DNA from: Utricularia gibba
Taxonomy: Eukaryota; Streptophyta; Magnoliopsida; Lamiales; Lentibulariaceae
Direction of reading: 5' to 3'
Assembly: GCA_002189035.1 (NCBI GenBank)
Contig: NEEC01000013.1
Span: 1,240,001-1,304,000, forward strand
Length of the DNA: 64,000 nucleotides
Below the pieces are notes generated by a model. The model worked only from the letters and a program-made list of their open reading frames with translations, was not told the origin of the DNA and did no database searches. Shown piece by piece: positions 10,639 to 46,483 of this stretch (positions are counted from its first letter, which is position 1; every line of letters starts with the position of its first letter). Both the position numbers and the translations under genes were made by a program.

Positions 10639-12075
10639 ATGGCTGCTTTGAGGAGTAACGGCTCTGTGCCGTCGCTGCCGCCGCCACGCCCCAGATCACC
10701 GCCGGAGTATCCGGATTTGTATGGGAAACGGAAGGAGTTGGCCAAGGTCCAGATGCTGGAGAGGGAAATTGGTTTTCTAAGGGTATGCTTTTCTTTAAAA
10801 AGCACGCACTCCAGTTAAGCCACAGTTCTTCGGACATGGGAGCTTAGTGCGTGCGTCTTTTAACTATTCCCTTTCGACATAGTAAACGACATAAAAACCA
10901 TACCTTTAGAGTTTTACCCTGAAATGGACAGCACCCCTTTAATTTATTTCGCCACTTCTCTGTTCTTGGTGAGTAATTTTTCATCTCCAGTCTCAAGTAT
11001 GTGAATTTTTTTATTAAGCAGGAGGAATTGAAGTCCGTTGAGGCGCTTGAGCCAGCCTCAGTGTCATGTAAAGAGTAAGCCTTTTCTGTCTGAGTGCTTC
11101 AGTATTGCTGTTTCTAGGGACTTCTGTTGTTGCTATTCTGTTAAAATTCCGAAGAAACAATCGAATGTTTTTTTCTTTTTACTCCACAGGATTGCCGAGT
11201 TTGTGACTGGAAATGTGGATCCTTTCTTACCCACGTGAGACCAGAAATTGATTACAATTTTCAGTATTGAATTTGTGTTTGTGTCCTGGATTTGAGATAT
11301 TTATCTTGCATATTCTCTGCCTCTTTCCGGTATACAGAACCAAGGCGACTCAAAGATCATGTTGCTTCTGGAAATGGATGTGGTATTTGCCTCCCAATCA
11401 TGTTTACTCATTCTCCACTATATGTTTTTCAGCATTGCTGTTACTTCGATGTGGAAGTTTCCTTTGTTTCATGCCTAACCATCGTCTGTCTGTCTGTTTC
11501 CATGAAGCCGGTTGCCACGGCTAGTCATTTCCTGTGTATGCTGCGGTGGCTGCTCCTCCCACACGGAGATTCAATGCTGCTGCAACTGTGACAACATCAG
11601 ATGTGATTCTTGCTGCAGCAAGTGCAACAACATTGGATGTGACTCTTGCTGCTGCAAATGCAACCACATTAAATGTGACAATTGCTGCTGCTGCAGCAAG
11701 ACATGTTTCAGCTGCCGATTACCCAAACCCAAATGCCCTTCCATCTCCTGTGGTAAGAGCAGTTGCTGCAGGAAACCCGATTGTGGCGGGTGCTGCTGCC
11801 CCTGCTCCAGGTGCTGTTCCTTACCATCCTGCTCTTGCTTCCCTAAATGCCCCAAGTGCAGCTGCGTTCCTAAATGTCCACAGTGCAGCTGTGTCCCTAA
11901 ATGCCCAAAGTGCAGCTGCGTTCCCAAATGCCCAAAGTGTAGCTGCGTCCCCAAATGCCCAAAGTGTAGCTGCGTCCCCAAATGCCCAAAGTGTAGCTGC
12001 GTCCCCAAATGCCCCAAGTTCAAGTGCTCTTGTAATTGTTTTAAAAGCTGTTGGTACCCTTGCTGCTTCTGTTAG
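10639..12075 (+). CDS. Class C (AGG3/DEP1/GS3-like) heterotrimeric G-protein gamma subunit
   Basis: Membrane-associated G-gamma with a long Cys-rich tail; pairs with G-beta and, in characterised relatives, affects organ and seed size. Exons 10639-10782, 11022-11074, 11190-11234, 11338-11382 and 11508-12075 total 855 nt, 284 codons plus stop, all in frame. Residues about 20-95 form the G-gamma-like domain: a charged helix (YGKRKELAKVQMLEREIGFLREELKSVEALEPASVSCKE), then EIAEFVTGNVDPFLP and CCFWKWMC. Residues 96-284 are extremely Cys-rich and end in tandem CSCVPKCPK units. The exon 4/5 junction (TG|C) was chosen because only the acceptor at 11506-11507 opens the Cys-rich frame. Family identity is well supported; the subtype (DEP1 versus GS3-like) is not resolved. 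Confidence 0.88.
11846..12020 (+). repeat. Tandem repeat encoding (C-x-P-K-C-P-K-C-S) units of the G-gamma tail
   Basis: Roughly seven near-identical 24-bp units (consensus AAATGCCCAAAGTG(C/T)AGCTGCGT-type), each coding eight residues with three Cys. It stays open in several frames on both strands because the unit length is divisible by three, which explains the antisense frame at 11571-12023. Confidence 0.85.
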
Positions 12076-12279
12076 TAAAACCAGCCCTTGAATCCTTGTA
12101 ATTGTGCATCAGTTTCACCATTTTGTTATTGATGCTTCTGTTCTTAAGGTTTTGGTCTGTGGAGAACTCATCAAGAACAGCACAATAATTCATTTGTTCA
12201 AACAAATGGGGATCCTGCTAAACAAGAACAAGTATATCACTCCTGTTTAGCACAAATCATCGACTCTATAGATGGAGAG

Positions 12280-13460
12280 CTCAACGTTAGTCATGGTTCT
12301 GGTGCAGGGAACTTCTTGAGAACTGCTGAATGCAACAGAGAAGGAAGGCTAGTTGAACAGTCCTAGATCATGGAGCTTCCTGCCATGGTTTCGTCGTCGG
12401 AGTAGCCTAACGAGCATACGAACGAGCATACGAAGACAATGTAGTCATCGTTTTCAGCATCATACACGAACCCTGGATTGTCTGCCCTGCTCCAATGGCA
12501 CGAGGCAATGCACTGGAGTAGGTAGCCGCATCCTGAATCACGGAGTTGGTGTTATCGACAGTGAATGCCGTTGTCATCAGCTCTGATCCTACGGCGCTCG
12601 GGCACCATCCTGGATGAAGAGCCTTGAGCAGCGCAGAGACACCGCGTACATGCGGAGAGGACATGGATGGATGTTCCTGGTGAACTAACTGATAAGGCGT
12701 TAAAACTGAGATCAACATGAAGTAAAATGAACTATCACGGCGACCGGACGGCCTGTCGGATGGACCAACGGCCCCGTCCGCGCGGCCAAGATATTGAAAC
12801 CCAGCAACGGCAATCGGATGGTCGTGACAGAGCACTGGGTTATCATCAAGAGAAACGAAAAAAAAAACATTTTGGCCAAGATCGCAGCATCCATGGCAGT
12901 GACTACCCCCCGGTAACACGTGCACAGACAGCCGTGCTTGATGTATGCCTTCCATGGCCTTCGTAGTCTCGAGGGCTACGAGGTTTTGGATGGAGTCAGC
13001 ACCATCTTCCAGCTACAGTACTACAGTTACATCATCACTTCAGTTTATCAGCAAACCAGAGCACGATAACATGATCCATTTTTGGATACTCGAGCGCCGA
13101 TCAGCTTGTTGCTGCAGTTCGTGTTGCTGACAGGTTGGAGGTGGAGCAGCATGGCCACCATTGGGCTGAAGCACCGATAATCACATTCTGTTAATTAAGG
13201 CGGATCTCCATCCTGCTTTCCCCACCCCAAAAACCAAGTGAGCGTTTCATGTGCACCAATCGGAGGCTGCGCCGTAGCTTCCCGGCTTCGTGTGTACCAA
13301 GTGAGTGTTCTTGCAAGAACAAGTGACAGAAGCGTTGACAATGAAGCTGTAAAACCTCGCTGCCATTCCTAGAGAAAGGACAAAATACAGACTGTTTTCT
13401 TTTCAGATGGAAAGGCGGAAGGGCGTTCAGACGAGCTATTGAACCAGCATCTATTCATGC
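12280..13460 (-). pseudogene. Subtilase relic 1 (SBT1-type), heavily deleted
   Basis: Minus-strand fragments in gene order: NTNCSNKLIGARV-like (about 13070-13110), GHGRHTSSTA-like catalytic-His region (about 12925-12960), NILAARTGPLVHPTGRP (about 12770-12820), then SSPHVRGVSALLKALHPGW followed by DNTNSVIQDAATY (about 12510-12665). Frameshifts and large deletions remove the protease-associated domain and most of the core. The 3' part (about 12280-12400) resembles the end of subtilase exon 2. Compare the intact gene at 40275-42597. Confidence 0.85.
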
Positions 13461-14753
13461 AGTTCATACAAATAAGTCTTATGTTTCACACTATTTACAA
13501 CAATACCACTGTACGGGCATACCTTCTGTAAATCTCCATATTTAATAATCAATAATAATAATAATAACCACAACACAGCCTAGTTTTTGAATTCTTTAAA
13601 TAAAAAAGTCAATAGATAATTTTACAATTTACACATGACTTGTACGGAAAAAGAAACGATGGACAACCCCAAGCTCAATTAGGTCATCCTATCGTATGTG
13701 TCAACTTAACATTATGTGCCTGATTTTTTAATTTTTGCTTTAAATTATGTAGAATAGAATTAATTTTAAAATTTTCTAAATAAATTTAATTTTAAAATTA
13801 TAAATCGTTTTATGAAATAATAAAACTTATGTTATATACTTATAATATAAGAAATTATTTTCTAATTTAATACAATAATATAAGTAAATTTTTAAAGTAT
13901 ATATAGAAAGTGGATTATATAATTCTATTATTAATATTTTCTTTAATTACTGAAATAATAGTTCAAAAACTTTAGTAATTAATAAAGTTAATTATATAAT
14001 CTGATTTTATTATAAGCAAAAAATAATAAAAAAATATACAACAAAAAATATTGTCATAGCCGGGACCGTAGGCTTGGACTCGGGGGCCACCTCCGTGACG
14101 TTATTCTATGACCAGCACCTCTAATATGCCATACAATATTTTAAAAACACGTTGAACATATGATTAAATTATTATTATAATAAATTTAATCTTATTGAAT
14201 AATTTCTTATTTTATATAAAAGATTTATAAAAATAAATATTTTTTTTAAATGAATTGAATTATTCTTCAATTTACTTACAATCGGGATATAATCCTAAGT
14301 TGATATAATGATTTTATAAGACTTATCTTCACTCTTGGATTATGTAGTCAATTGCTATGTTTATAATACTGAAGTATATGTTTTTTTTGTATAGGGTATT
14401 AAGACTTTTTTTAAATTAAGAAGTATAGGTTTAGGGTCTCTTGGATTATGGGTATTATAAAAATTCAAAAAACTTATTATTTATAAATTAAAGTTAACTC
14501 TCTATGTTTTAAGAAATAAAAATAATTTCTTGATTTTATTTTTTAAAATTAAAATCGTTTGTATTTAACAAAACTTTCGATTCGCATTCTTTGATTTAGA
14601 TGGATTTAAATGTTTTTATGTTTGATTTTTCTTTTTATTGAACATGAGTATGGTATAATATAATGTCATTTATTAGGTATACGTCCAAGTTTGGAATGCA
14701 TACAGACAAACATTCAAGGAATCTAAATCCATCTTGTCCGTGTTGTACGGAGA
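13461..14753. other. AT-rich spacer downstream of subtilase A
   Basis: No gene seen. A short (AAT)n tract lies at about 13548-13567. A block near 14040-14160, with GGGACCGTA...GACTCGG...GCCACCTC...GTGACGTTA, recurs at about 20965-21060 and 39480-39570, so this spacer belongs to the triplicated unit. Confidence 0.6.
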
Positions 14754-17072
14754 CTAGGCAATGGTGAAGGCGATAGGGCTGCGGACGGTCCGTTTGAGGC
14801 ACTTCCAGGTGATGGAACCGAAAGCAGAACTGGGAAGATTCGTGCCGCTCACCTTGAAGGTAACTGTGTACTGATGCTTCTCGCCCTTGGAGAAGAACTT
14901 CAGTGTATCCGGGATCACCTTAACAGTGACGAAGGAGGGCACCGCCACTTCGACCCGGTAGATGAACACTCCGATTTCGACATTGGTCAAGGTTCTTGTG
15001 TAGGAAACTTCCCGGGATGGGTTGAATACGACGGAGAAGGAAGGGTAGTTGAACTGTCCCGGATCTCGGAGCTTCTGGATGTTAGCGCAAGCATTGCTCT
15101 TTTGTGCAATGGCGGCGACCTGGTTGTCGGAGTACCCCAAAGAGCATATGAAGGCTAGGTAGTCGCGGGGGTGGCATCGTACACCAGACCCGGATGGGCT
15201 GCTTTCTCCGGCTGGATATGCCCTGCTCCGATGGCGTAAGGCGTTGCTAGGCCTGAATTAGTAGCTGCGTCTTGAATGGGCGAGTTGGTGTTGTCGAGGG
15301 TGTACGCCGTTGTTATCAGCGCTGATCGTATGGCGCTCGGGCTCCAGTCTGGATGAATGGCGGTGAGCAGGGCGGAGACGCCGCTTACATGGGGACAAGA
15401 CATGGATGTTCCTGATGATGAATCGCATCGTCAAAAACGTACATAAAAAGTAAGTGACATTGAGTTTTCACTGCTTACCGGAGATAATGTTGTACGCCGT
15501 GATACGGGCATCCGATGGCAAATCCGATGGACCGGCGGCCTCTGTCCATGCTGCCAAGATATTAACCCCTGGCGCGGTGATGTCAGGTTTTAAGATCTGT
15601 GGTGTCACGGTATTCGGCCCTCTTGAGCTGAACCCTGCCACCACCGGCGCCGGCTTCACATTCAGAGCAGTTCCGCCGAAGCTCAACACCGCCGTCGGAT
15701 TCGATGTTCCCGCATATATCTTTATGGCACTGCCTTCCAGCTCTCCAACGCTCACTCCTGGCTCCAAGTAAGGATAGGCTTGCACAACCCGCCCTGTACC
15801 CAAATTGTTTGCTACAATAACACCAACACCGCCGGCTCGTTTCACTTCATTCGCCTTTTGACCAGGTGAACTGTTGCCAGCATTACAGACCACCAGCTTT
15901 CCTTTGACGGTGGTAGGGTTCAATGATCCACTCAAGCAAAATGGAGAAGCTGTAGGATAGACTAATCCGACAAGCTGATTCCCCATACCCTGTCCAGTGT
16001 ACAGAGAAATTCCGGTATAAACTGCCCCATTTCCGAGCTTCACGGTCGCCGGAAAAGTTCTATCAATGGTGCTAGCACCAACGGTTGTGATCCATGGCGC
16101 ACTGTTTGTAACTGATCCAGCGGAAGGACCCGAGTTTCCGGCCGAACAAACCACCGTAATCCCCAATTGATTTGCTTGGAAAGAGGCGATCGCGATCGCG
16201 TCACTGTAATAGGGTACGGGTCTGCCGCCAAGAGACAAGGAGAAAACGTTCACGCCGTCGCTTATAGCGACGTTCATGGCGGCGATTATGTCAGCTGAGC
16301 TGCATCCTTGCTCGAAGCAAACCTTGTAAATTGAAATCCTTGCACGGGTAGCCATCCCACGAGCGGTTCCATTGGCTAGTCCAAAGAAACTAGCTTTGGG
16401 CACATATGCCCCCGCCGCCGTGCTCGATGTATGCGTCCCGTGTCCTTCATAGTCTCGAGGGCTATGACGCACTGTCGTCCGATGGTCCGCCTCGTACCCT
16501 TTATAGAAAACTCGAGCTCCAATCAGTTTCTTGTTGCAGTTCTTTTTCGGATCGAAATCATTCGCCTTTTCGCACAGGCCCCGCCACCGTAAAGGGACTG
16601 GTAGCATCCCGGCATCGCTGAAGGATTTGGATTCCGGCCAGACGCCGGAGTCGACGACCCCAATTATCACATTCTGTGACTTAAGGTGGATCTCTATGCC
16701 ACTTTCCCCACCCCAAAAACCAAGCTCCCCTTCAAGCCCAAGAAACAGAGGAGTTCTCGTAGTTTGCAGCTGGTACATGGTGTTCTCGTACACCCCTAGA
16801 ACCGCATCAGAGCGACGCAGCGCATCCAATTCCTCGGGCGTCACCACGGCAGCGTAGCCATGAAACACAGTGTCGTAGGTGTAGAGAATGGCGCCCCTCT
16901 CGGAGGAAGTCACGGAGGTGAAATGATGGGCGTACCAATCGGCATGGGAGGCGTAGCTTGCAGGCTTCATGTGGTCTTTCATGTGTACCAAGTAGGTTTT
17001 CTTGGCAGAGCAAGCGACCAGAGCATTGAGCACAATGCCTATGGCGACGAAGACGTAAACCCTAGACGCCAT
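14754..17072 (-). CDS. Subtilisin-like serine protease A (SBT1/cucumisin type), one frame break in exon 2
   Basis: Secreted subtilase. Exon 1 is 17072-15479; a 67-bp intron (15478-15412) splits the Gly codon before the catalytic-Ser motif T-S-M-S-C; exon 2 runs 15411-14756/14754. The start is the Met of [23 protein letters not shown], a clear signal peptide, rather than the in-frame codon 75 bp upstream. Seen in order: I9 propeptide, D of [13 protein letters not shown] of CSAGNSG, a protease-associated insert, [11 protein letters not shown], and a fibronectin-III-like tail ending FTIA. Exon 2 loses frame at a G5 run (15167-15171) where copy C has G6, after VYDATP and before the frame coding GYSDNQ. 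As written the product would lack the C-terminal domain. Either a real lesion or a base-call error. Confidence 0.88.
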
Positions 17073-17125
17073 GGATGAAGAAAGGAGATAGATGTCGTGC
17101 TTCCCCGAACTTCGACGCACAGGCC

Positions 17126-17133
17126 CTTTTATG
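17126..17133 (-). promoter_or_regulatory. TATA-like box of subtilase A
   Basis: CATAAAAGGG on the minus strand about 55 bp upstream of the ATG at 17072, conserved at the same position in copies B (24068-24077) and C (42651-42660). It implies a very short leader of about 25-30 nt. Confidence 0.55.
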
Positions 17134-17147
17134 CATGCAACTGACAC

Positions 17148-17861
17148 AAATAAGGCTCGTATTTCAAGCTATTCACAAGAATGCCATCCAACATTACATG
17201 TATTTCTTAATATTTTTTCAATGATATTCATATTCAATTATCGAAGCTTGAGCCAAGCTATACTACAGTGGTCATATACTAAGCATCAAGGGAAATGTTC
17301 ATCTTTCCGGTCAGATGCATGGGATCGTTTCCGAGGCGCCACCCAATTTTATGATTATTTGATCCACTAGTTCTATTAAAATATTATTTACTCGTAGTTT
17401 TTGGATTATGAATCGAATTAAACCCATTGTAAGTATAGTATGAAAAATAAACAATTTATTTAATTATAATCATTTTAAATTTCAAATATTTTATAAAATA
17501 TATTGAATTAAACCCCAAAAATTATATATTTGAATTGAATCGGGTTAGTATTAACTATTAAAACGCCGTTATTAGGATTCAAATTTTTCATCGTCTTACA
17601 TTGCGAAGAAGATAATGTTGAGATGGGGCAAATGTGACTTACAAAATGGGGAATAATAAAAAAGAAATAGGTTTGGGGTGTTATAGATTTGAATAATGTC
17701 TGAATTATACAAACAATGAAATTTTAGAATGTAACATCGACCTACACGAGAGGGACTACAATTTTAAAGTGATATGGGGTTCACAATATTGCTTTTTTTT
17801 TATTTTGAAATGTCACATTAAATGGTCTATTTTGTAAGCAAAATATCCCTTGTGCATAGCA
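17148..17861. other. Upstream spacer of subtilase A
   Basis: No gene seen. The sequence is shared, with divergence, by the upstream regions of copies B (24100-24780) and C (42700-43410), including a TTGAATTAAAC / TATATTTGAATTGAAT stretch and a CTACACGAGAGGG segment. Confidence 0.6.
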
Positions 17862-17933
17862 GCGTTTGTAGTCCAACGGTTAGGATAATTGCCTTCCAAG
17901 CAATAGACCCGGGTTCGACTCCCGGCAAACGCA
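17862..17933 (+). tRNA. tRNA-Gly (anticodon UCC)
   Basis: 72-nt cloverleaf: acceptor arms GCGTTTG / CAAACGC plus discriminator A, D-arm region TAGTCCAACGGTTAGGATA, anticodon stem-loop TTGC-CTTCCAA-GCAA giving TCC, and T-arm CCGGGTTCGACTCCCGG. A-box and B-box internal promoter sequences are intact. A damaged copy lies at 43414-43484. Confidence 0.93.
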
Positions 17934-18011
17934 GATGATATTTTTTTTATGCTAATAAAAAAACAAATCCAATTTTTTGAAATTTCAAAGAAGATTATAA
18001 GTGTATTTAAA

Positions 18012-18115
18012 CACGATAGAGATCAGAGTTCCAATCAGGGAATGGGCTGCTCACCCCAGTGCTTTGGAAATCTCATTTGATGGTGTTTTTGAAAAGTATA
18101 TGTAGAATATAGATC
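18012..18115 (-). pseudogene. Truncated VIP3/SKI8 3' remnant (unit 1/2 boundary)
   Basis: Matches the 3' flank of the VIP3 gene (about 45065-45185): AGAGTTCCAATCAGGGAA, GGGCTGCTCACCCCAGTGCT, then GAAAAGTATATGTAGAAT. It is directly followed by a subtilase relic with no G-gamma sequence between, so the boundary has suffered a further deletion. Confidence 0.75.
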
Positions 18116-18117
18116 AT

Positions 18118-18345
18118 GGAGCTTCCTGTCATGGTTTCGACGTCGGAGTAGCCTACCGAGCATATGAAGGCAATGTAGTTATCATTTGCAACATCATTCA
18201 CGGGCCCTGGACTGTCTGCTTTGCTTGAATGGCACAAGGCATTACATTGGAATAGGTAGCCGCATCCTCAATCACAGAGATGATGTTATCAACATTGAAT
18301 GCCGTCATTATCAGCTCTGATTCGATGGCGGTTGGGCTATGAAGA
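18118..18345 (-). pseudogene. Subtilase relic 2 (exon 2 fragment)
   Basis: Parallels relic 1 (about 12360-12600): CATGGAGCTTCCTGTCATGG and GTCGGAGTAGCCTAC, then the reversed DNTN...AATY and SELIMT-like region. No catalytic core. It contains GGCGGTTGGGCTATGAAG (18327-18344), which is the empty-site version of the copia insertion at 33099-37639. Confidence 0.75.
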
Positions 18346-18857
18346 TGGTCAAGTTTATTATCATCGAGTTCGTACTGGTTTAATTGAAAATATGAAAATA
18401 AAGAAACACTTCAAATTTGATTAAATGTCCAGCCTATATGCAAAATGGTTGATATGATGCCCCAAATATGTGTTAACAAATTAAAATGAAAAACAAGATT
18501 AATATTTACCAGTTAAAATCCAGAAATTGGGAAATGTTCTAGAAACAATAAAATTCATTATGAATTTTCAACATAAGTACAACATTTTAAATATTAAACA
18601 GATTAATGATTTATAATACAAAGCTATCGGTAAAGCTTCTTTGTAACATCATATCATCTTCTTTATGCTTTCAGATAGAATTTCATCAACTCTTCTCTAC
18701 ATTCACACCACACCTAGTGAAGGGTAATGGAGATGTACTTTTATAACCACACGTCCCTTACATCTTATCAATCATACTCATTAATGTAAAACTGTCTTGC
18801 TCACCCACAACTTTCAACACTTCACACAAGCATTTCCATCAGAATAATACAACCTTT

Positions 18858-20700
18858 GTTGACTAGCATCAGCTGTTCACATGCATAATTTCCAGCTTGC
18901 TAGATACATAAGCGATGTCTTCAACATCAGCTACTTCGAGTCAATCACTACTATTGGCCAAGACTAAGTTTAGTTAATTTTCTTTTTTTGTTATATCCAA
19001 TCGTGCACGCATTTTTGTTCAATTTCATTAGAGTCCTGAAGTATATCTATGGGTGCTTTCTTCTGTTAATGAAATACGTACCATTTTCATCAATTGTTCT
19101 GTGAATTTGACAATGGGTATCAGAGCATCATGACCTCATAGAACAATGGATCGTCGTCATCGTTTGTGCAACCACAAATTCTCAAATTCGATGGTCATTA
19201 TGATCACTAGGCCTTATTGATGGAAAAATTCTTATGCTCAAAGGGATTTTGAGAATTGATTGAGAGTGGATTGCCCATGCATGTTGAAGGTGCGATGTTA
19301 GCACTCAAATCTATTGATATGCTTTTCCCCATCATAGTAAAGGTGATCGAAATTGAATGTCACATTATGCAAGAGGATAAGGCAACTTTGGTACTATGGC
19401 ATCACTGGTATCTCCATATTGGATATGAGCGCCTAAATCTATTGATACAAAGCAGATGGTTAATGGCATGCCAAAAGTTGCATTGAGAGCATCTACATGC
19501 ATTCATTGCTTGAATTGAAAAACAACATAGGGAGGCACAAAGCAAAATTAGTACTTGGAGAGATCAAAATCTACTAAAACTTGTCCATACGGATATATGT
19601 TGATCTATTAGCCCTCCAACTACCAGTGAAAAGAGGTATTTCCTGACTTTCATTGATGATTTTAGTAGAAACACTTGGATTTATTTTTTATCAGAGAAAT
19701 CACAAGCTTTCGAATGCTTGAGCTCTCTAAAGTGAAAGTGGAGATAGAATCAGGCATGTTGATCAAAGCCATGAGAGGCGATAGAGGAGGAGAATATCCC
19801 TCAACTGATTTCATAAATTTTTGTGTGGAAAATGGGATAAAGAGATTTCTTACCAATCTTAGAGCACCTCATCTAAACGGAGTAACGCTGCTTGAAATAG
19901 TCAGAGCTATGTTTTCTCATGCGGGGATGCCTAAATTGTTTTGGGTGGAAGCAGTGCAGTGGAGCGACTATCTGTTAAATAGATCAACAGCCACATCTAT
20001 CAGAGATAAAACACTTGAGCTGAAATAGAGCAACTCAAAACCAAGTGTCGAATTATTTTAAAATTTTTGGATGTCTTGCTCATGTACATCTTTCAGAAGC
20101 TGTACAAGAGGATAAGTTTGAAAAGAGGAGCTTTCCATGTGTTTTCATTGGACTCAGTGAGGAATCAAAAGGCTAGAGGCTCTACAATCCTATTTCTGAA
20201 CGCATAGTTATTAGTTTCGAGGAGGACAGCGTTTGGGATTGGAACCATATATCGCATTACCAGCTCCCATACTTGTAGTAGAGGATCCATTCCTCAACCT
20301 GCAGAACCAGAAGGTTCACAACTTGAGGAACCAGCAGTCCTCACTGATGCAAGTACTGAAAAATGAGGGAGTATCCAGCACTAACACATCACTGAGAAGA
20401 TCCCAAAGGCACAGACAACCAGCATCATGGTTGCAAGACTTCATCACATATATTACACATGAAGAAGAATTTGCAAACTTGGTTGCTTTGTTTACAAAAA
20501 TAAACCAGGATCCAGTGACCTTTGAACCTTGCAATTGAGAGTATCCCTTGGCCACAATTTGAGCTTTATGTTTGTTTAGAGAGCCATCTTCCTTGTGCTT
20601 TGTCTTAAAAATCCACTTGGGGCCTATTATTTTTGCTCCAGCAGGTGGTTCTACTTTCACCCATGTGTTGTTTTTTTTTTAATAGACTACATTTCTTTAT
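18858..20700 (+). mobile_element. Degenerate, internally rearranged Ty1-copia relic
   Basis: An LTR-like region (about 18858-19110) ends before a primer-binding-like GGTATCAGAGC (19118-19128). Gag-like sequence follows (ESGLPMHVEGAMLALKS, about 19256), then pre-integrase WHHWYLHIGYERL and integrase: TFIDDFSRNTWIYFL (about 19647), RGDRGGEYPSTDFINFCVENGI (about 19775), and APHLNGV where the usual E-Q-N-G is degraded. After SLRRSQRHRQPASWLQDF...FTKINQDPVTFE (to about 20530) the next reverse-transcriptase segment appears on the minus strand (PKWIFKTKHKEDGSLNKHKAQIVAKGYSQ, about 20655-20540). Stops and deletions throughout; no 3' LTR identified. Confidence 0.8.
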
Positions 20701-20901
20701 CTATTGCTTATCTCCAATGCGGAATTGTGCCATGAGTATTTTCTAAATCATTTAAATAAAAAGTCAATATGATAATATAAATATATTTTTAATATATATT
20801 AAGTAATATAATTTTTAAATTAATCTGCTCTTTAATCACTAATACATTAATTCAAAAAATTTAATAATTTATCAAGTTAGTTACATAATCTGAATGTATT
20901 T

Positions 20902-20938
<37 letters not shown>

Positions 20939-24016: not shown

Positions 24017-24091
24017 GGATGAAGAAAGAAGATAGATTTCGTGCTTCCCAGAGCTTCGACGCACAGGCCCTTTTATGCATTCAACTGACAC

Positions 24092-25400: not shown

Positions 25401-25429
25401 ACATTCCTAGAGTTTACTTGGTAGCCAAT

Positions 25430-32420: not shown

Positions 32421-32469
32421 AAGAATAGGCTCCAGTTCTAGTAGAGAGCATTGACTCGATAGATGGATA

Positions 32470-33436: not shown

Positions 33437-36400
33437 CCCTTGCTCAAACTTAGCTGGGGTTTGAGGCTAAGTTTGGTTCGGAAGTATAGCAGTCTCTCTA
33501 TTGGCATTCGCTTAGTGAAGAGATCAGCGAATTGATGTTGAGTCGAAACGTGTCGAGTCACTAGATAGCCTAGTGCCACCTCTCCCGAACAAAGTGATTA
33601 TCAATCTCGACATGCTTGTTGTGTGAGTGAAGAACCGGATTGATGGTGAGATGTAAGGCACTTAGGCTGTCACAGTACAATATTGGTGGTGAGGGAAGCT
33701 TGATCCTTAAATCTCTCAATAGAAACTATAACCAGGTTACTTCAGCAGCTGCATATGTCATAGCATGATACTTTGCCTCTGTATTGGATCTTGAGATAGT
33801 GTGTTGCTTCTTCGAGCTCCAAGATATAGGATTGTGCCCTAGCAGAACACAATAGCCTGTGACAGATCGTCAGGTAAACAAGCAACCGCCCCAATCTACA
33901 TCTGAATAGGCTTCTAAATGAAGTGAGGTATGGCACTGATATGCAAGCCCAAGATGTAGTGTCCCTTTGATGTACTTCAAAATTCGAGTAGCTAACGAAT
34001 TTCCCAACCACTAATAAGAGCAATAGAAAGAATAAGACGAATGGTGCCTGGGCGAATCATAGGGGAGAATGTCTCAATGTAATCAAGATCATCAACTTGA
34101 TTATACCCTTTGGCTACAAGGCGAGCTTTGAGGCGATCAAGGGAACCATCAGGTTTAAGTTTCGCTTTGAACACCCACTTGCACCCAATGACGTGTTGTG
34201 TTTCCTCCCGTGGGACAAGAGTCCATGTATTATTTTGGTGAAGAGCGTGGAGTTCTTCGGACATAGCATGTTTCCAACCGACGTGAGAAAGCGCCTCTTT
34301 GACACTCCTAGGTTTAGAAGGCACGGAGGTATAGTGGTACAAGGCATACTTGGGGTTTGGTTTGAAAATTCTATGATGGGACCGGGTGGCCATAGAATGA
34401 GAGCGCGATATAGGATATGGATCAGTAGGCGTAGGAGCGGAGTCACGGACAGCCGAAGGGTCGCAGGGAGAAGATGGGGTTTGGGGTAGGCTAAGGGTAG
34501 AAGCATCGAGGCGGGTGAGGGAGGGTGGTGAAGGGGGATGGATGTCCAGGGAGGTTGGGGGGTTATCATCATGAGAAAACGAGTTGAGTGGGGGCGAGTC
34601 GGGTGGAGGACCCCTGGAGAGGAGAGGGAGACAGCACAGGGGCGAGGGTGATGGGTGTGAGGTCGACTTGAGTACTAGGAGAGTCAACATGGCTAGGGGA
34701 AGGAGGGCAATAAGGGAAAGGGGATGGGGGTATGGTGACGATGGGGTCGGCTAAAGTACAAGGGGGTCAGTAGGGGTAAGAGAAGAAGAGAGAGTTGGTA
34801 AGAGAGCAGGGAAGGGAGAGTTGACCACAGGAGCAGTGAGGGTGAGTTGGTGGGGCTCATCATCGTCCAACCTATCATGAAGCCATGTTTCACATAGGTG
34901 AGCAACTAAAGCAGGGGGTGGAGGGGAGGGATTAATAGATTTAAATGGAAATGTGTTTTCATCAAAAATAACATGACGAGAGATGTACAATTTTTTTTTT
35001 TTTTGGCTGGATCATAACATGAATAGCCATTATGACTCACATTATATCCTAGGAAGACAGATAAAGTGGTTTTTGGAGAAAATTTATGGTGCTTACAATC
35101 CCACAAATAAGGGAAGCACTTTGAACCAAAAATGCGTAAAATAGAGTAATCTCGATATGAACCAAACAAAGTGAAGTAGGGTGACTCCTTGTATAAAGCC
35201 AGTGAGGGCAATCGATTTTGGAGGTATATTGCAATAGCAAAGGCTTCAACCTAGAAGGTGAGGGGGAGGCCACTGTGGAACAACATGATCATACCATATT
35301 CACGAATGGTGCTATGATGACGTTCTGCCATCCCCATCTGTTCAGGAGTGTGCGGCCATGTGAAGTGGTGAATCATACCTATCTTAAGAAAGTGAGTTTT
35401 TAGAGAGAAATTGACAAATTCGCTCCCATTGTCAATGAGAAGTACTTTAATGGTTGCATGAAATTGTCTGAAAATATATGCCTCAAATTGAAAAAAGGTA
35501 GAGATAAAATCACTTTTTTGATGAAGGGGAAAGAACCACATAAAGCGAGTGTAGGCATCAACAAAGTAAGGATAATATTTAAAACCATTACGAGAGAGAA
35601 CTGGTGGCGGGCCCCATAAATCACAATAGAGTTTTTCAAAAGGGCTTTTTGATTCAACTGTAGAATTGGAAAACGGCAATTTAAAAAGTTTGCCATACTG
35701 ACAACTATCACAAAAAGTGGACTGACGTGGGTTGATCACCGAGATGAAACCTTTATTTTTGAGAAACGACACCATTGAGTCTTGAGGGTGTCCAAGACGT
35801 TGATGCTATTTTTCAAGGGAACATGACTTAAAACGAAAAGAAAAGAACGCTTCAAACGGTTGTTTGATCACATAAAGGCCTTCCCTACGCTGCCCGGTTG
35901 CTCGATTCTCCCCTGTTGTTGAATCCTTAACAAACATATTAGTGTCAGTATATTCACAGTTGACATTATGTTGAGTAGTAAGGTGTGAAACAGAGAGAAG
36001 GTTTTTGGTGAGTTGTGGCACATATAAGACATCATGTAAAAGAATGGAGGAATGATTGTGGGTAAGAGAAGAATTTCCCACACCAACGATGGGTAGTGCT
36101 GAGCCGTCTCCTATTTTCATAGCATCAGTACCTGCATATGGGAGTATGTTATTAAAGACATGTTTCGAACCTGTCATGTGATTGGTGGCACCGGTGTCTA
36201 CGGTCCACTCTGTATCACAAAGAGTGTTGTCCAGTGTTAAGGAGGCCAAAGCTTGAGGGAGTGGTTCACTTGTAGGTTCAGGTTGTGGACCTGGAAGTCG
36301 CCAGCAAATTTTTGCAATATGCCCTTGTACATCACAAATTTGGCAGATCTGATGTTTATATTGTTCACACTCTACAAGTGTCATCCTGCACTTGCCTGGG

Positions 36401-37311
36401 GGAGGTGGTGGTGCATGACCCCGCCTATCAAAGGTGCGTGTTGGTGCCTGCTGAGAAGAGTCCTTTGGACTAGTTGTAGATTGTTTTATATGACTTTGAC
36501 GACCTTGAGCTTGGAAGCCTCATCCTTATGAGACAAATTTTGAGTGATTATCATATTGGGTTAGAAAGCCCATCGGTGAGTTTTGAGAGTGAAATTGCTT
36601 CTCTAGGTCTTCATTGATTTTTCGTCAAATCTCAAAGCTGTGTAACTGTGGAATTAAATCTTTGTATGATGGCCGTGGTTCCTTCAGCATGGTGGTGGAG
36701 AATGCATCGTACCCAGGGCAAAGACTAGTTAAGAGAAAATAAACTTTTTCCCCATCAAGAATAATGTCTCCGATGGTAGCCAAGTTGTCACAAACTGTCC
36801 TGAACTGCATCAAATATTCATCAAGCTTTTGATCAGGACTCTTGTGACTTTGTATAAGTTGGTATCGTAGAGCATACCTGCGCTCTTCTGATTTTTGGGC
36901 ATAGGCATCTCGAAGTGTGGACCAGACAGAAGCTACTGTTTCACACCCAATGATCAAAGGCCATGTTTCATTAGAAACTGTGCCAACCATCCAGCTGCGA
37001 AGAAGCCGATCCGAGGTATGCCATTTGGTAAATTCTGCAGATTGTTTTGGGGAGGAAGGGGGATCTTGATCGTCGTAGGCTTGTTCAAATTGTGGTGGTG
37101 GTGGTGGCTACCGTCGAGACCTTGATTTTCTGCAAGACCAAAGACCATCTCCTTCCATAGATTATAGTTTTTGCTGGTGAGTTTCACGGTGATGAAATTT
37201 GCAACAGTGACGGCATTTACGGTAGCCATTGAAGAGAAGACGTGAGGAAGGCGGAAGCTTAGAGGAAATAAATGCTGACCAATGCAAGTGATCAACACTG
37301 CTTTGATACCA

Positions 37312-37639
37312 TAAATAAACCGTGGCTACAATGCCTTGAAAGAATAAAAATGGTGTAATAATTACTACTCAAGATGATTGAAAGCAATTACACGTGAAGA
37401 CTTTTTATAGGCAATGCTAGGTTAGTTCTAAAAATATGGAAGCACGCATGGCATCACCACTTTCTCTCAACCGCCATGGATAAGTCTTGACCATCTCTGA
37501 ACGTTTCCCAAGTGCGGGTTCAGGTGGCATCAACTATATCGTGACTCTGAACGTTTCGTATAGATAAGTCAGTCTCCTTATCTCCCTATCCTTATAACTC
37601 TGTTCTACCTTAATACTCCACTGACCATCTCTTTCAGCA
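37312..37639 (-). repeat. 5' LTR of Ty1-copia element 2
   Basis: 328 bp; minus-strand TGCTGAAAGAGATGG to GGTTTATTTA, next to the primer-binding site. It differs from the other LTR by substitutions and by short indels. Confidence 0.85.
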
Positions 37640-38790
37640 GTTGGGTTGTGAAGATAGTCCAATCTATTATTATCGAGTTCGAACTGGTTCAACTACTTCG
37701 AGTCAATCACTAGTCTTGGCCAAGACTAAGTTCACTCAGCTATCTTTTATCTGTTGTGTCCAATCTTGCACGCCATTTTCGCTCAATTCCGTTAGAATCT
37801 TGTAGCGAATTTATGAGCACTTTCTTTTGTTAATGAAATATGTACCATTTTCATCAATTGTATTCTGTGCATTTGACAATTATTATCAGAGCATCATGAC
37901 CTCATAGAACAATAGATCATCTTCATTGTTTGTGCATCCACAAATTCCCTAATTTGATGGTCACTATGATCGGTGGGTCTTACTGATGGAAAATTTCTTG
38001 CACTCAAAGGAATTTTGCGAATTGATTGAGAGAGGGTTGCCCACACATGCTGAAGGTGTGCTATTAACACTCAAATCGCAGAAGGAGTTTAATGAGAAGA
38101 AGATTAGAGATCTAAAGGTAAAGAACTATTTGTTTCAGTCTATAGATCGATGTTACTTGGAAACTATTCTTTGTAAGAATGCTTTTAAGAAAATTTGGGA
38201 AGCTATGACTACAAGATTCTTGGGTAATACATGAGTTAAAAGATCTCATTTGTAGTTATTTAGAAGAGAATTTGTAATCCTTAAAATGAGCAGTGATGAA
38301 AATATCACAGATTATGTTGGAAGTGTGTTTAGAGTTGCAAAAAAAAATGTGCAGCAATGGTGAGCATATGGTTGATAAAAAGGTAGTGGAAAAGATCTTG
38401 CGTTCCCTGATTAATGAGTATGATTAGTTATGTATTCTATTGAGTAATCTAGTAATATGGATGAGCTAACTATTGATGAGCTTCAAGGCTCCTTAGTTGT
38501 GCATGAGCAGAAAATCAAAAGAAACTAGACAAATGGCTCTATAGAACAAGTGCTGATCAATCAAACTAGTGAGATTATCCATAGCATGGGAAGAGGGAGT
38601 CACTTTCATGGTAGAGGCAATGCTAAAAAAAAAAAATAATGGAATGTTATCAATGTCACCAACTTTGTTATGCAGTTGAGAACTTAAACATGGTTTCATT
38701 ATATCCTATTTTCGTGAGAGTTCTGTTACCTTTTGTGTCTATAAAAGCATTTGTCCATAACTTGTATTGTCATCATCCTATTTTTGTCTA
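37640..38790 (+). mobile_element. Copia gag relic shared with unit 2
   Basis: 37640-37690 continues the relic-3 flank. Then LTR-end sequence (CTACTTCGAGTCAATCACTA, as at 18930) and a mutated primer-binding site TTATCAGAGC (about 37884) lead into gag: LHSKEFCELIERGLPTHAEGVLLTLKS, then RDLKVKNYLFQSIDRCYLETILCKNAFKKIWEAM. These match the relic at 18858-20700 in its first part. No integrase or RT follows; the element is truncated near 38690. Confidence 0.75.
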
Positions 38791-38799
38791 TCATACAAA

Positions 38800-39030
38800 T
38801 ACAAGACTGACGTAGCTTCCTAGCTTCATGTGTACCGAGTGTCCTCGCAAGGGCAAGTCACATAAGCATTGATAATGAAGGTGTAAAACCTTGACGACAT
38901 TGCTCGAGAGAGGACAAAATACTGATTGTTTTCTTTTCTGGTGGGAAGGCAGAAGCGCGTTCAGACGAGTCATCGAATCAACATTCTATGCATGCATTTG
39001 ATACAAATAAGACCAATATTTCATACTGTT
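38800..39030 (-). pseudogene. Subtilase 5' relic
   Basis: Parallels 13270-13460 beside relic 1: TTCATGTGTACCGAGTGTC...GCATTGATAATGAAGGTGTAAAACC...TTTTCTGGTGGGAAGGC, corresponding to the signal-peptide/start end of a subtilase. Coding sequence is not intact. Confidence 0.6.
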
Positions 39031-40274
39031 TACTGTTGAAATTCAGGATCCGATGAATTGGACGAACGCACACATGAAATCCAAGTACACAATAAATATG
39101 AATCATAATAGAAAAAATTAGGTACAACTGATTACTAGTAATCCATAATTTACTATATACTTGATTATTCCATTTTCATTTTTCAATGTGAAATTATGTA
39201 TTCTAATATTTACAACAATACCACTGCACCTTATTAATCCTCTTATTTAATAATCAATAATAACCACAATACAACCCATGAGTATTTTCTGAATCATTTA
39301 AATAAAAAGTCAATATGATAATATAAATATATTTTTAATGTATATATATACATTAAATAATATAATTTTTAATTAATCTTTTCTTTATAAGGTTAATCAC
39401 TAATAATTTATAAATTTAATTATATAATCTGAATGTATTTTATTATAATAAAAAATAATAAAATATGTAATAAAAATATTGTTGGGACCGTAAGCTAGGA
39501 CTCGGAAGCCACCTCGGTGACGTTACCCTAACACCATTAGCTGTAATGTGCCATGAAATATTTTAAAAACACGTCGAACATTTAGTAATGAATTTGAATT
39601 AAAATATTTTTATAATAAATTGAATCGTATTTAATAATTTTAATTATATTTTAAAAACATTTATAAAAAGAAATATTATTATTTAAATAAGCTGAATTTG
39701 TTCTTCAATTTAGATATAAATTTAAATTAATCCGGATATACTCCTAGATTGATCTCATAATTTTAAAACACTGATAGACTCTTTTATAGTTTTTATCACA
39801 TGGGTGCCAAAAATCTCAAGGAGTAAAAATGTAGTAGTAAAAAATCTAATACACCTAAAACTGATCTTCACTCTTTGATCATCTAGTCAATATCTGTGTT
39901 TATAATACTGAAATATAGGTATTTTGTATAGGGGATTATGAAGTATAGGTTTAGGTTCTCTTTTACTATGTTTATTAAAAAAATTTTGAAAAACTGAAAG
40001 TTAGTTCTTTATATTTTATAAAAATAAAAATATTTTTCAGATTTCTATTATTTTTAAAATAAAATTTGTTCGTATTTAATAAAACTTTGTATTCACATTC
40101 TTCAATTTATTTGGATTTAAATGTAAAGTTTCATTCTTTATTGAACATGAGTGTGATATCATATCACTTATTGGGTATAAGCCCAAGTTTGGAATGCATA
40201 CACACAGATTCAAGGAATCTCTGGGTAGCATTCGCGAAACCCTAAGGCTTCATTGTGTTTGTGTTGTGCGGAGA
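39031..40274. other. AT-rich spacer downstream of subtilase C
   Basis: Homologous to the spacers at 13590-14750 and 20735-21698. No gene seen. Confidence 0.6.
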
Positions 40275-42597
40275 TTAGGCGATGGTGAAGGCGACGGGGC
40301 TGCGGACGGTCTGTGTGAGGCACTTCCAGGTGATGGAACCGAAAGCGGAACTGGGAAGATTCGTGCCGCTGACCTTGAAGGTAGCTGTATACTGACGCTT
40401 CTCGCCCTTGAAGAAGAACTTCAATGTATCTGGGATCACAGTAACGGTGATGAAGGAGGGCACCTCCACTTCGACCCGGTAGGTGAACACTCCGATTTCG
40501 ACATTGGTCAAGGTTCTTGTGTAGGAAACTTCCCGGGATGGGTTGAATATGACTGAGAAGGAAGGGTAGTTGAACTGTCCTGGATCGACGAGTCTAGGGA
40601 TGTTAGCGCAAGGATTGCTCTTCTGTGCGATGGCGGCGACCTGGTTGTCGGAGTAGCCCAACGAGCATATGAAGGCTAGGTAGTCGCGGGGGGTGGCATC
40701 GTACACGAGACCTGGACGGGCTGCTTTCTCCGGTTGGATATGCCCTGCTCCGATGGCGTAAGGCGTTGCTAGGCCTGAATTAGTAGCTGCGTCTTGAATG
40801 GGCGAGTTGGTGTTGTCGAGGGTGTACGCCGTTGTTATCAACGCTGATCGTATGGCGCTCGGGCTCCAGTCTGGATGAATGGCGGTGAGCAGGGCGGAGA
40901 CGCCGCTTACATGGGGACAAGACATGGATGTTCCTGATGATGAATCCCATCGTTAGAAACAGAGATAGAAAGTGAGTAACATTGAGTTTTCACTGCTTAC
41001 CGGAGATAATGTTGTACGCCGTGATACGGCTATCCGATGGCAAATCCGATGGACCGACGGCCTCTGTCCATGCTGCCAAGATATTAACCCCTGGCGCGGT
41101 GATGTCAGGCTTTAAGATCTGTGGTGTCACGGTATTCGGCCCCCTTGAGCTGAATCCTGCCACCACCGGCGCCGGCTTCACATTCAGAGCAGTTCCGCCG
41201 AAGCTCAACACCGCCGTTGGATTCGATGTTCCCGCATATTGCTTTATTGCACTACCTTCCAGCTCTCCAACGCTCACTCCTGGCAGCACGTAAGGATAGC
41301 CTTCCACAACCCGCCCTGTACCCGGATTGTTTGCTACAATAACACCAACACCGCCGGCTCGTTTCACTTCATTCGCCTTTTGACCCGGTGAAATGTTGCC
41401 AGCATTACAGACCACTAGCTTTCCTCCGACGGTGGTAGGGTTCAATGATCCACTCTCACAAAATTGAGATGTTCCTGTAGGATAGACTAATCCGACAAGC
41501 TGATTCCCCATCCCCGGTCCAGTGTACAGAGAAATTCCGGTATAAACTGCCCCATTTCCGAGCTTCACGGTCGCTGGAAACGTTCTATCAATGGTGCTAG
41601 CAGCCACGGTTGTGATCCATGGCGCGCTATTTGAAACTGACCCGGGGGAAGAACCCGAGTTTCCGGCCGAACAAACCACCGTAATCCCCAGTTGATTTGC
41701 TTGGAAAGCAGCGATTGCGGTCGGGTCACTGTAATAGGGTTGGGGGCCGCTGCCAATAGACAAGGAAAAAACGTCGACGCCGTCGGTTATAGCGGCGTTC
41801 ATGGCGGCGATTATGTCAGCTGAGCTGCATCCTTGCTCGAAGCAAACCTTGTACACTGCAATCCTTGCACGGGTAGCCATCCCACGAGCGGTTCCATTGG
41901 CTAGTCCAAAGAAACTAGCTTCGGGCACATATGCTCCCGCCGCCGTGCTCGATGTATGCGTCCCGTGTCCATCATAGTCTCGAGGGCTATGACGCACTGT
42001 CGTCCGATGGTCCGCCTCGTACCCTTTATAGAAAACTCGAGCTCCAATCAGTTTCTTGTTGCAGTTCTTTTTCGGATCGAAATCATTCGCCTTTTCGCAC
42101 AGGCCCCGCCACCGTAAAGGGACTGGTAGCATCCCGGCATCGCTGAAGGATTTGGATTCCGGCCAGACGCCGGAGTCGATGACCCCGATGATCACATTCT
42201 GTGACTTAAGGTGGATCTCGATCTCACTTTCTCCACCCCAAAAACCAAGCTCCCCTTCAAGCCCAAGAAACGCAGGAGTTCTCGTGGTTTGCAGCTGGTA
42301 CATAATGTTCTCGTACACACCTAGAACCGCATCTGAGCGACGCAGCGCATCCAATTCCTCAGGCGTCACCACGGCAGCGTAGCCATGAAACACAGTGTCG
42401 TAAGTGTAGAGAATGGCGCCCCCGTCGGAGGAAGTCACAGAGGTCAAATGATGGACGTACCAATCAGCAGCAGAGGCGTAGCTTGCAGGCTTCATGTAGT
42501 CTTTCATGTGTACCAAGTAGGTTTTCTTGGCAGAGCAAGCGACCAGAGCATTGAGCACAATGCCTATGACGACGAAGACGTAAACCCTAGACGCCAT
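40275..42597 (-). CDS. Subtilisin-like serine protease C (SBT1/cucumisin type), intact
   Basis: The only undamaged member of the cluster: 751 residues from exons 42597-41001 and 40933-40275 with a 67-bp intron. Signal peptide [23 protein letters not shown] (1-23); I9 propeptide about 26-108; catalytic Asp141 (VIDSGVWPE), His211 (GHGTHTSS), oxyanion Asn313 (CSAGNSG) and Ser535 (G-T-S-M-S-C). A protease-associated domain lies between Asn and Ser, and a fibronectin-III-like domain with NYPSFSVIFNP and YTRTLTNVE ends at FTIA. Exon 2 reads through [22 protein letters not shown] because the G6 run at 40688-40693 is complete. Expected to be secreted to the cell wall; substrate unknown. The in-frame Met 48 bp upstream was not used because the signal peptide begins at 42597. 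Confidence 0.95.
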
Positions 42598-42645
42598 GGA
42601 TGAAGAAAGGAGGAAGATGCCGTGCTTCCCAGGGGTTCGACGCAC

Positions 42646-43413
42646 AGGCCCTTTTATGCATGCTGCTCACACAAATAAGCCTCATATTTCAAGCTATTCA
42701 CAGGAATGCCACCAGCCGACCATGAATTAATTATCTATTTTATTATTATTTTTAAAATGATATTCATATTTAATTATTGGAGCTTCAGCCAAGCAATACT
42801 ACAGTGCAAATATATTCAGCATCAAGGGATATGTTCATCAATCTGTCCATCTTCCCGGTCACATGAATGGGATCATTTCGATTTTACGATTATTCGATCA
42901 ATTGTTTTTACTAGTTTCGATTTGAAACTATTATTTACTCGTATTTTTTGAATTATGAATCAAATTAAACTCATTGTAAGAATGTATGAAAAATAAAATA
43001 ATTATTTGATTTTAATCATTTTAAATTTCAAATATTTTATAAAATATATTGAATTAAACCCCGAAAATCATATATTTGAATTGAATCTGGTTAGTTTTAA
43101 AATACCGTTATTAGGATTCAAAATTTTCATCTTCTTACAATCACGTAGAAGATAATGTTGAGATGGGCAACTATGACTTATAAGATGGGCAATAATAAAA
43201 AAAGAAATAAGCGTGGGATGTTATAGATTTGATTAATGTTTGAATTCTACAAACAATAAAATTTTAGAAAGTCTCAACCTACACGAGAGGGATTATAATT
43301 TTATAATGATACGGGGTTTCACAATAATATTTTCTTTTCATTTTAATAATGGTATAAAATAAATGTTTTATCCATAGGAGCCATCTAAATAATAATTATT
43401 TTATTAGTCAACG
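42646..43413. other. Upstream spacer of subtilase C
   Basis: TATA-like CATAAAAGGG at 42651-42660 (minus strand). The remainder is AT-rich and homologous to the other two upstream spacers. No gene seen. Confidence 0.55.
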
Positions 43414-43484
43414 GCGTTTGTAGTCCGACCTTTAGGATAATTGCCTTCCAAGCAGTAGACCCTGGTTCGACTCCGGCAAACGCA
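43414..43484 (+). pseudogene. tRNA-Gly(UCC) pseudogene
   Basis: 71-nt damaged copy of the tRNA at 17862-17933. The acceptor arms and CTTCCAA anticodon loop persist. The D-loop reads GTCCGACCTTTAGG instead of GTCCAACGGTTAGG, and the T-arm has CCCTGG with one C missing on the 3' side, so T-stem and B-box are impaired. Confidence 0.8.
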
Positions 43485-43649
43485 GCCGTTGTTTTCTAAT
43501 AAATTAAACGCAAATCCAATTTTTTGTTTATTCTAAATTTCAAAGAAGACTATAAGTGTATTTAAATCATAATATTATCTTTTTTATTTTAAATACATTA
43601 TAATTAATTAATAATTGGTTTATGTTCATGACACTAATATTTTATTAAT

Positions 43650-44270
43650 AAAGTTTTTACAATTTCTCTATCAATATTCTCCTTTTTAAGACAGAACAAC
43701 ATGTGCGATTGATCCTTCTATAACCTCAACCACAACGTGGAAGCTGCTTGCTTTAACAAGCTCAGAGGTATGTTCGGACAACTTAATGGCTTCTATGGGG
43801 AATACCCTTCTTGCCCCTGCAAGTGCAGAACATGGAAACTTTGTATCAAGTATAAATTATAATAAAAATAAGAAAGGTTATATGACAGTATAATTTTATT
43901 TTTTTATTATTTTATCTTATATTCAGGATAATTTATCTCATCAATCAAATATTCTATTTTTTTTATTTAATCATTTCTTTTATACTCTTTACCAAATACA
44001 ATCTAAATATATCAATCAATCCAGACAGTAGGAGAACAACGCATTATGATCACCAACGGCTTTATACAAATTGTGCTTCAGCAGCACGTTCTTTGCTTGC
44101 ACAGACATCACTCGTCTCCATTCATTATCACCAATCGATTTACCGTAACAACAATGAGTAGGCGAAAAGCCTCAGAGATGGCAGAACAAAGGTTTGCCGT
44201 AGCAAGAAAGAGATACACACAGCTGTAAAGATAAACACGAATAAGAAAAAGAGAAACTTCAAAGCCCAAA
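43650..44270 (-). pseudogene. PRMT10-like relic (unit 3)
   Basis: Minus strand retains IEAIKLSEHTSELVKASSFHVVVEVIEGS (about 43795-43710), which aligns to the post-motif-I helix and VEVIEG strand of PRMT10. Motif I, present in the unit-2 copy, is replaced here by about 190 bp of AT-rich sequence (about 43835-44020). Confidence 0.55.
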
Positions 44271-44289
44271 CACATTCTTAGAGTCTACT

Positions 44290-45166
44290 TGGTAGCCAAT
44301 GCATGGACCCCCTGGCGGGCGTGCAGCCAATTAGGGTTGCAGCCGGTCCCAAATTGAACGGTTTTTTAGAATCATTGGTTCATAAACCTGTGTTTCACTA
44401 TTCACTTCGATTTCGATTTTAAAGATTAATTTCTAAACTGTTATGAATGCTTGTACAACATGTCATTTTTTAAAAGATTTTTAAGACTCTCATAATGCTT
44501 GTTAAGAATATTTAAAAACGATCTTGAAGATAGATAGTGTTTTTTAAGCAATCACATAAGTTATTGAATATGTGTAGAAACATCATTTTTGTAAATGTTT
44601 TTTTAAAATTTTCTTAACAATTATACCTGAAATCATATAAAAACAAATACAATAATTCATTGATTTCGAATCGTCAGTTCTGCACAAATCGGAATCACAG
44701 TTTTTTGATTCCAAATATCTATCAAAACCAAAACTATACAGATATTCAAATTCCAAAACGGTTCCGGTTCCAACCGATTACAAATTTATTGGCAATGCCC
44801 ATTGCTTAAGCCTTCAACTTCAGCTGCAAGCCACGGTAGCAAACATGGAAAACTACGCAGAAACCAGTCGTGAGATGGCATCGTTTCATATTGTTGGATA
44901 CTGAACATCAGTTGGTATGTCAAATTTTAAGGACAGGCAGAGCATCTTGTTGATGATTTGGAAACTTCACTTTACAGTTCACGTCACCCGTGCGATTCAA
45001 GGCAGTTGACCGGAACCAACAGTCAGTTCTAGGGGCAATTTGAAACACAGAATACAAAATTCAAACACGGTAGAGATTAGAGTTCCAGTCAGGGAAGGGG
45101 CTGCTCACCCCAGTGCTCTGAAGCAAACCAGGGTCAGAAAGCAACAGCATCATTTGGATATGTTTT
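44290..45166. other. 3' flank of VIP3, template of the duplicated remnants
   Basis: Contains the sequence repeated at 25430-26270 and, in small part, at 18012-18115. No gene seen. Confidence 0.6.
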
Positions 45167-46483
45167 TCAAGAGTATATGTAGAATGACAAACTCTTGTCA
45201 TCAGAAACACTGGCAAGCAAGCATGATCTCACATCTGTCTTCAACGGGGGTCCAAAGGCGACTGCCCATACCTGGGCGGTGTGGCTGGTCATGATCTGGG
45301 AAGCTGCTCTCATTTTCAGATCCCAGATTCTAACACTATTGTCGCTTGAACCGGTTGCAACCGCAGCCCCATCAGGTGAAGCATCGACACTCAGCACCCA
45401 ACTAGAGTGACCAGACAAAGATGTGATCAAGGTCTTCCTCTCAGAGTCATGGATTTGCACAGTAGTGTCGTCTGAGGCAGAGAATAGGACCCTCGAGTCA
45501 AGAGGTGAGTAGACAATGCTTCGAACTGGAGAGGTATGACCTTCCAAGTTGTGCATGAACTTGGCACGAGCCACATCAAAAACGGAGATGGTACCATCCA
45601 TCAAGCCACAAGAGATTTGTCTCCCATCAGGGCTCCACGCCACTGAAAGGGCAAACCTCTTGCTCCTAACTTTCTCAGATGGTTTTGAAGCTTCGGGAAC
45701 TTCCAAGGTATCTATTAATTTCCATTCAGCGGTATCCCACAGCTTCACAGAACCACTACCACCTCCAGCGGCAGCCAATATCGTACCCTGTGTCACAAAA
45801 TGAAGCATTACGCGCATATTTCAGTGAGGGTACTGGAAATTCAGCTAACTCCAAGAATTATAGATAGAAGGCCAAAACGGGATGACTTATTACACGATCC
45901 AGGAGTTGATCAACATTCATACCACATAAGAATAAGCAGTTTTCAGGAATCAGCATCCAACAACTCCATATATGTTAATAATAGAGTCTGTTCTTCTACC
46001 TAATGAACATAACGCACTTAACCCAGTTCGATAAAAAGCCCCATCAACACGAAACCGACCAAGAAGTCTACATTCAAAGCTTTTGCGCAGGTATCTAACA
46101 AACTATAAATAATTTTCCAGAAACTCGCCTAAACCAGTCGATACCTGCGGGTTGAAACGTAGCTGCCAAACTTCCGAAGGAGGAGCCTCAAGGGTAGCAA
46201 CTGTATTGTTGGTGGCAATATCAAAGACCCTTACGAAGCTGTCAATGGAGGCGGACGCTGCGATTCTCCCAGACGGATGCGCCGCCACGGAAACGACGCC
46301 GAGGCAGTGACCAGTGTTCGTGCGCAGGTTCTGTGGGCCTTCGGGATTCCACAACTTCACCGTCTCATCAAGCGAGCCAGTCAACAGCAGCGGAGGCGAT
46401 TCTTCCGTCGCCGGCACCCACGCTGCCGTCCATAGGGAATCTTCGTGTGCGTTCTGGACGCTGTCTAGTGGCGATAGCTTCAT
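45167..46483 (-). CDS. VIP3: WD40 protein VIP3/SKI8 (Paf1 complex and Ski complex subunit)
   Basis: Seven-bladed WD40 propeller, 319 residues, from exons 46483-46145 and 45787-45167. In plants this protein serves the Paf1 transcription-elongation complex and the Ski RNA-decay complex. Seen: NAHEDSLWTAAWVPATEE, LLLTGSLDETVKLW, RTNTGHCLGV, ASIDSFVRVFDI, LEAPPSEVWQLRF, GSGSVKLWDTAEWKL, VAWSPDGRQISCGLMDGTISVFD, LFSASDDTTVQIHD, HSSWVLSVDASPDG, GSSDNSVRIWDLK, ending SFYIYS. The start at 46483 (MKLSPLDSV) was chosen over the frame's earlier codon because it matches the family N-terminus. A telo-box-like AAACCCTAG lies at 46497-46504. Truncated copies of its 3' end mark the boundaries of the repeat units to the left. 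Confidence 0.95.

Follow-up and report, generated by a model that had tools for sequence, protein, structure and literature searches.

Microhomology-mediated joining and unequal sister-chromatid exchange are reviewed models of how segments are duplicated in tandem (PMC8831618), tandem arrays have been described in maize (PMC6118310) and gene conversion between plant tandem duplicates has been surveyed (PMC6383267). We here analysed a window of 64,000 nucleotides (C375:1,240,001-1,304,000) from Utricularia gibba, using an assembly of 100 Mb in 516 contigs; this species has a genome of 101 Mb and a history of repeated polyploidy (PMC6982007). Positions 11,710-46,483 of the window hold three diverged direct units with the same internal order, as found by self-BLASTN and alignments. 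In agreement with the models of tandem segmental duplication, the units are arranged head to tail, the boundary genes are truncated, the junction has short homology, and a copy was apparently gained later between homologous units. In contrast to those models, the primary junction is here still readable despite roughly 12-30% unit divergence, and the short homology is 6 bp within two coding sequences, with no short-repeat array. The locus also resembles converted plant tandem duplicates in having clustered copies whose similarity exceeds what their age would suggest and which show mosaic tracts, but differs from these in that the units carry their own reference in the form of their flanks. No description of the locus was found in searches of mostly open-access literature.

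We consider it highly probable that the block is an old tandem segmental triplication, modified later by deletions, by insertions of transposons and by gene conversion. Every process inferred is of a known kind, and the locus is an instance of well-preserved but ordinary genome evolution, with no new kind of system being opened by the triple subtilase array. Its value lies in that the primary junction, the order of two duplications and the later conversion are all readable in one sequence, together with a paralogous outgroup.

Layout of the three units and their boundary genes

The features of the block, with strands where applicable and the analyses used in parentheses, were as follows.

10603-12075, plus: left boundary gene, a complete G-gamma whose Cys-rich tail lies in ORF 11506-12075 (tblastn, reading frames)
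About 11710-18108: unit 1, U1 (self-BLASTN, alignments)
12259-13384, minus: U1 subtilase relic, frameshifted, internal parts missing (tblastn, alignment)
14757-17129, minus: U1 subtilase, with a one-base frameshift in a G run of exon 2, common to U2 (tblastn, alignment)
17862-17933, plus: U1 tRNA-Gly(TCC) (ARAGORN)
18005-18108, minus: U1 remnant of the VIP3 3' flank and last codons, followed by the U1/U2 junction (self-BLASTN, alignment)
About 18109-26391: unit 2, U2 (self-BLASTN, alignments)
18110-18337, minus: U2 subtilase relic, C-terminal part, stopping at an element shared with U3 (self-BLASTN, tblastn)
18338-20700: U2 retroelement remnants, including the U3-shared element (18328-18383, 18927-19311) with a U2-only insertion between (self-BLASTN, alignment)
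21702-24073, minus: U2 subtilase, two one-base frameshifts in exon 2 (tblastn, alignment)
24972-25123, minus: U2 PRMT10-like relic exon (tblastn, distances)
26273-26391, minus: U2 truncated VIP3 3' end (tblastn, junction alignment)
26392-31939, plus: Copia LTR retrotransposon at the U2/U3 boundary, TSD GTTGT, LTR K 0.085 (RVT_2 match, flanks)
31940-45307: unit 3, U3 (self-BLASTN, alignments)
31940-31963: primary duplication junction, with VIP3 to 31957, AGCTAC at 31958-31963, then G-gamma (flank joining)
31958-32272, plus: U3 orphan G-gamma tail, relic (tblastn, distances)
33099-37639, minus: U3-only Copia retrotransposon, ends approximate, LTR K 0.138 (self-BLASTN, LTR comparison, protein-domain match)
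37645-38617: U3 retroelement remnant common to U2, with a relative on contig C451 (alignment)
40278-42600, minus: U3 subtilase, frame intact, one short intron (Pfam, reading frames)
43414-43484, plus: U3 tRNA-Gly, one base shorter than the U1 copy (ARAGORN, alignment)
43692-43832, minus: U3 PRMT10-like relic exon (tblastn, distances)
45167-46483, minus: complete VIP3, two exons, right boundary gene (tblastn, Pfam)

The original prediction had described three diverged tandem units with a recurring gene order and suggested a self dot-plot of 10000-47000 as a check. Self-BLASTN did give long, collinear diagonals between the units, all on the plus strand, including 14317-18011 versus 39856-43566 (86.7%), U1 versus U2 at 14353-17810/21316-24724 (88.0%), U2 versus U3 at 20730-24773/39276-43393 (86.3%) and at 25141-26390/44013-45287 (76%), and U1 versus U3 at 11710-12402/31958-32599 (78%), with no match at E<=1e-8 in 20 base-shuffled versions of 10,001-47,000. 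The block, put at 30 kb in that prediction, is 34.8 kb long, with two Copia elements making up about 10 kb. Complete boundary genes were found at the outer edges only, as had been proposed, with the whole G-gamma at the left and the whole VIP3 at the right. That different parts were lost each time also held true: U1 retains the G-gamma 3' end (inside the whole gene), subtilase relic, subtilase and tRNA-Gly, having its PRMT10 exon deleted; U2 retains part of the subtilase relic, the subtilase, the PRMT10 relic exon and the VIP3 3' end, having lost the G-gamma tail and the tRNA, which ARAGORN did not find in U2 and for which the alignment shows a deletion; and U3 retains the G-gamma tail, a transposon-split subtilase relic, subtilase, tRNA-Gly, PRMT10 relic exon and whole VIP3. 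A VIP3 3' end recoverable in all three units was too much to claim, as in U1 it is reduced to approximately the last 6 codons and 3' flank. Smaller repeats are also private to U3; one of these, an insertion of ~173 bp at window 39034-39206, occurs at dozens of genome sites, often paired.

The left boundary gene is a candidate class-C-like G-gamma, judged from a Cys-rich tail that is plain in the translation and GGL exons that were recognised by eye only, the first exon giving no Pfam match. The right boundary protein carries WD40 repeats according to Pfam, and the gene is a putative VIP3, named from its N-terminus and from being the sole close match in the genome. Start exons and promoters are missing from the truncated copies of G-gamma and VIP3, which are most likely by-products without function. 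We also considered that the orphan Cys-rich tail of U3 could be expressed from the LTR as a free peptide interfering with G-protein signalling; the tail lies in an open frame (ORF 31724-32272) that has an ATG close to where the Copia 3' LTR ends. This is hardly credible, with the coding part at K 0.21 from the parent versus 0.20 for the part after the stop, and with the open frame passing through compensating indels. Within the Cys-rich tail there is a 27-bp in-frame tandem repeat (window 11836-12019 in the gene, 32094-32216 in the relic), having 6.8 copies in the gene, 4.6 in the U3 relic and about one in the aligned tail of a paralogous region on contig C480.

The C480 region is collinear with the entire window. 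At C480:281.1-290.3 kb it carries G-gamma, PRMT10 and a VIP3 relic, once each and in an order matching that of the unit, over some 9 kb. The single-unit outgroup expected in a related species was thereby found as a paralogous locus in the same genome, although one having no subtilase traces by tblastn and no tRNA found. Genes missing from the window unit are also present there, being an NT-C2 protein and a nitrilase-like fragment, the latter (carbon-nitrogen hydrolase, C480:284,136-284,561) lying between G-gamma and PRMT10. For the PRMT10 exon, K was 0.16 between U2 and U3 versus 0.30-0.38 to C480, and for the G-gamma tail 0.12 versus 0.33-0.40; because the distances between units are smaller than those to C480, the tandem duplication postdates the split of the two regions. 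PRMT10 is kept on C480 with relics in the window, and VIP3 is kept in the window with a relic on C480. This reciprocal loss between paralogous regions is an ordinary instance of the post-polyploidy fractionation seen in Utricularia (PMC6982007).

Probable sequence exchange among the subtilases

Protein searches found three full-length subtilases on the minus strand, each preceded by a subtilase relic. They have the composition of plant subtilases (S8), with I9 prodomain, S8, PA insert and fn3_6 domains in Pfam and catalytic motifs in the translations, and match cucumisin and a subtilisin-like protease structure. The coding sequence lacks a single base of a G run once in U1 and twice in U2, and these losses may be real or consensus errors; the frameshift shared by U1 and U2 is a G6-to-G5 change that could stem from conversion or from an assembly error.

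The subtilase coding sequences had a Ks of 0.115-0.118 in every pair, a value that codon bias may lower, whereas nearly all unit sequence outside them had a K of about 0.14-0.34. This contrast is clear on the 3' side, where the flank K of U1 versus the others was 0.24-0.34, and weaker on the 5' side (0.14-0.18). Site patterns in the coding sequence (84/84/58) favoured no pair and were clustered (122 adjacent-equal versus 75 expected, p<0.0002), including an 18-site run of U1=U3 and a tract of 208 bp identical between U1 and U3. Such tracts of conflicting similarity among the three copies point to exchange of sequence by ectopic gene conversion, which the earlier reading overlooked; as there are only three copies, any site pattern is a singleton that sets one copy apart, and the tracts are therefore unpolarised.

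The same similarity would be explained without conversion if selection and codon bias had slowed the change of the coding sequence, which would agree with a Ka/Ks of 0.37-0.50, first exons uninterrupted in all three subtilases and a GC of 0.54 in the U3 gene. We find this unlikely, as selection does not predict the clustered conflicting runs, even though some of them might be mimicked if a single copy had changed its rate locally. An age for the cluster based solely on the subtilase gene (Ks 0.12) would be lower than the one that the flanks suggest.

Junctions and order of the duplications

The boundary Copia was inserted 18 bp from the primary junction, with GTTGT on either side. When its flanks were joined, VIP3 sequence continued through GAAGCT, followed by AGCTaCCGATTACCC of G-gamma. 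Both parent genes have AGCTGC at the corresponding position (G-gamma 11710-11715, VIP3 45302-45307), a 6-bp microhomology read from the present-day genes, the junction relic now being AGCTAC with one substitution. The chance of at least 6 bp of microhomology at a random junction is 0.0013, and the joint fits microhomology-mediated joining or template switching alike. Breakpoints inside both genes, as originally predicted, are thus directly seen at the U2/U3 boundary.

At the U1/U2 junction, by contrast, the final codons of VIP3 are followed by sequence from some 290 bp beyond the G-gamma stop, and AGCTGC is absent. Unequal crossing-over leads one to expect an identical junction between all units, but the breakpoints differ from those of the U2/U3 junction, and therefore either a later deletion or an independent event is needed. 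A later deletion could mask an originally identical junction, and we take the U1/U2 junction as a secondary deletion of the primary one. If this segment had been duplicated in tandem on two independent occasions, each leaving one of these junctions, that would account for the unlikeness of a joint at AGCTGC within both genes and one ~290 bp after the G-gamma stop; such a course is nonetheless improbable, since it needs two rare events ending in the same two genes, with a single deletion being simpler and deletions being frequent in the units. That collapsed or mis-joined repeats produced the unit order, which is read from the assembled sequence, has only a very slight chance, since units that differ by 12-30% and have private transposons with clean TSD are not alternative assemblies of one sequence.

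Under the preferred triplication with secondary deletion, the order of events can be read from a retroelement that starts at the same subtilase-relic base in U2 (18338) and U3 (37645). U1 is uninterrupted across that site in alignment with the U3 subtilase (empty site near 12603), and in the flanks U1 was the odd one at 186 sites versus 96 and 96. Because of this empty site and the flank patterns, U1 split off first, with U2 and U3 arising from a second step. Grouping U1 and U2 as sisters, from their shared one-base deletion and overall identity, was rejected at the level of whole units, as flanks and shared element group U2 with U3. The U2-U3 flank K was uneven, 0.10 beside the subtilase coding sequence and 0.22-0.29 elsewhere, so that the time separating the first duplication from the second is only poorly resolved; the U1 alignment after the tRNA spans a deletion and was left out of dating. 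The proposal that the segment between G-gamma and VIP3 was duplicated in tandem is supported, with the differing U1/U2 breakpoints as a reservation, and its having been repeated once is supported by the retroelement common to U2 and U3 only.

We propose that the VIP3 3' coding part was first linked to the portion of G-gamma that encodes its tail, at the 6-bp microhomology and by a repair pathway that we infer. This would have duplicated the subtilase relic, subtilase, tRNA-Gly and PRMT10 relic, and would have placed at the junction a copy of either boundary gene that lacks the 5' part. A retroelement would then have entered the subtilase relic of one unit, which was duplicated again into U2 and U3, with unequal crossing-over being probable for this third unit, a process leaving no mark that the sequence could show. 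Separate losses of parts in each unit and private transposon insertions, including that of the Copia near the primary junction, would have followed and are directly visible. Finally, as the site patterns suggest, ectopic gene conversion would have kept the subtilase coding sequences alike as most of their surroundings decayed.

Other repeats were also seen in the window. A tandem pair at 2577-4548 and 6266-8238 has 77% identity over 2 kb, its second copy containing a sodium/calcium exchanger domain, and a direct match of 460 bp at 70% flanks the array on both sides (8390-8843/46680-47109).
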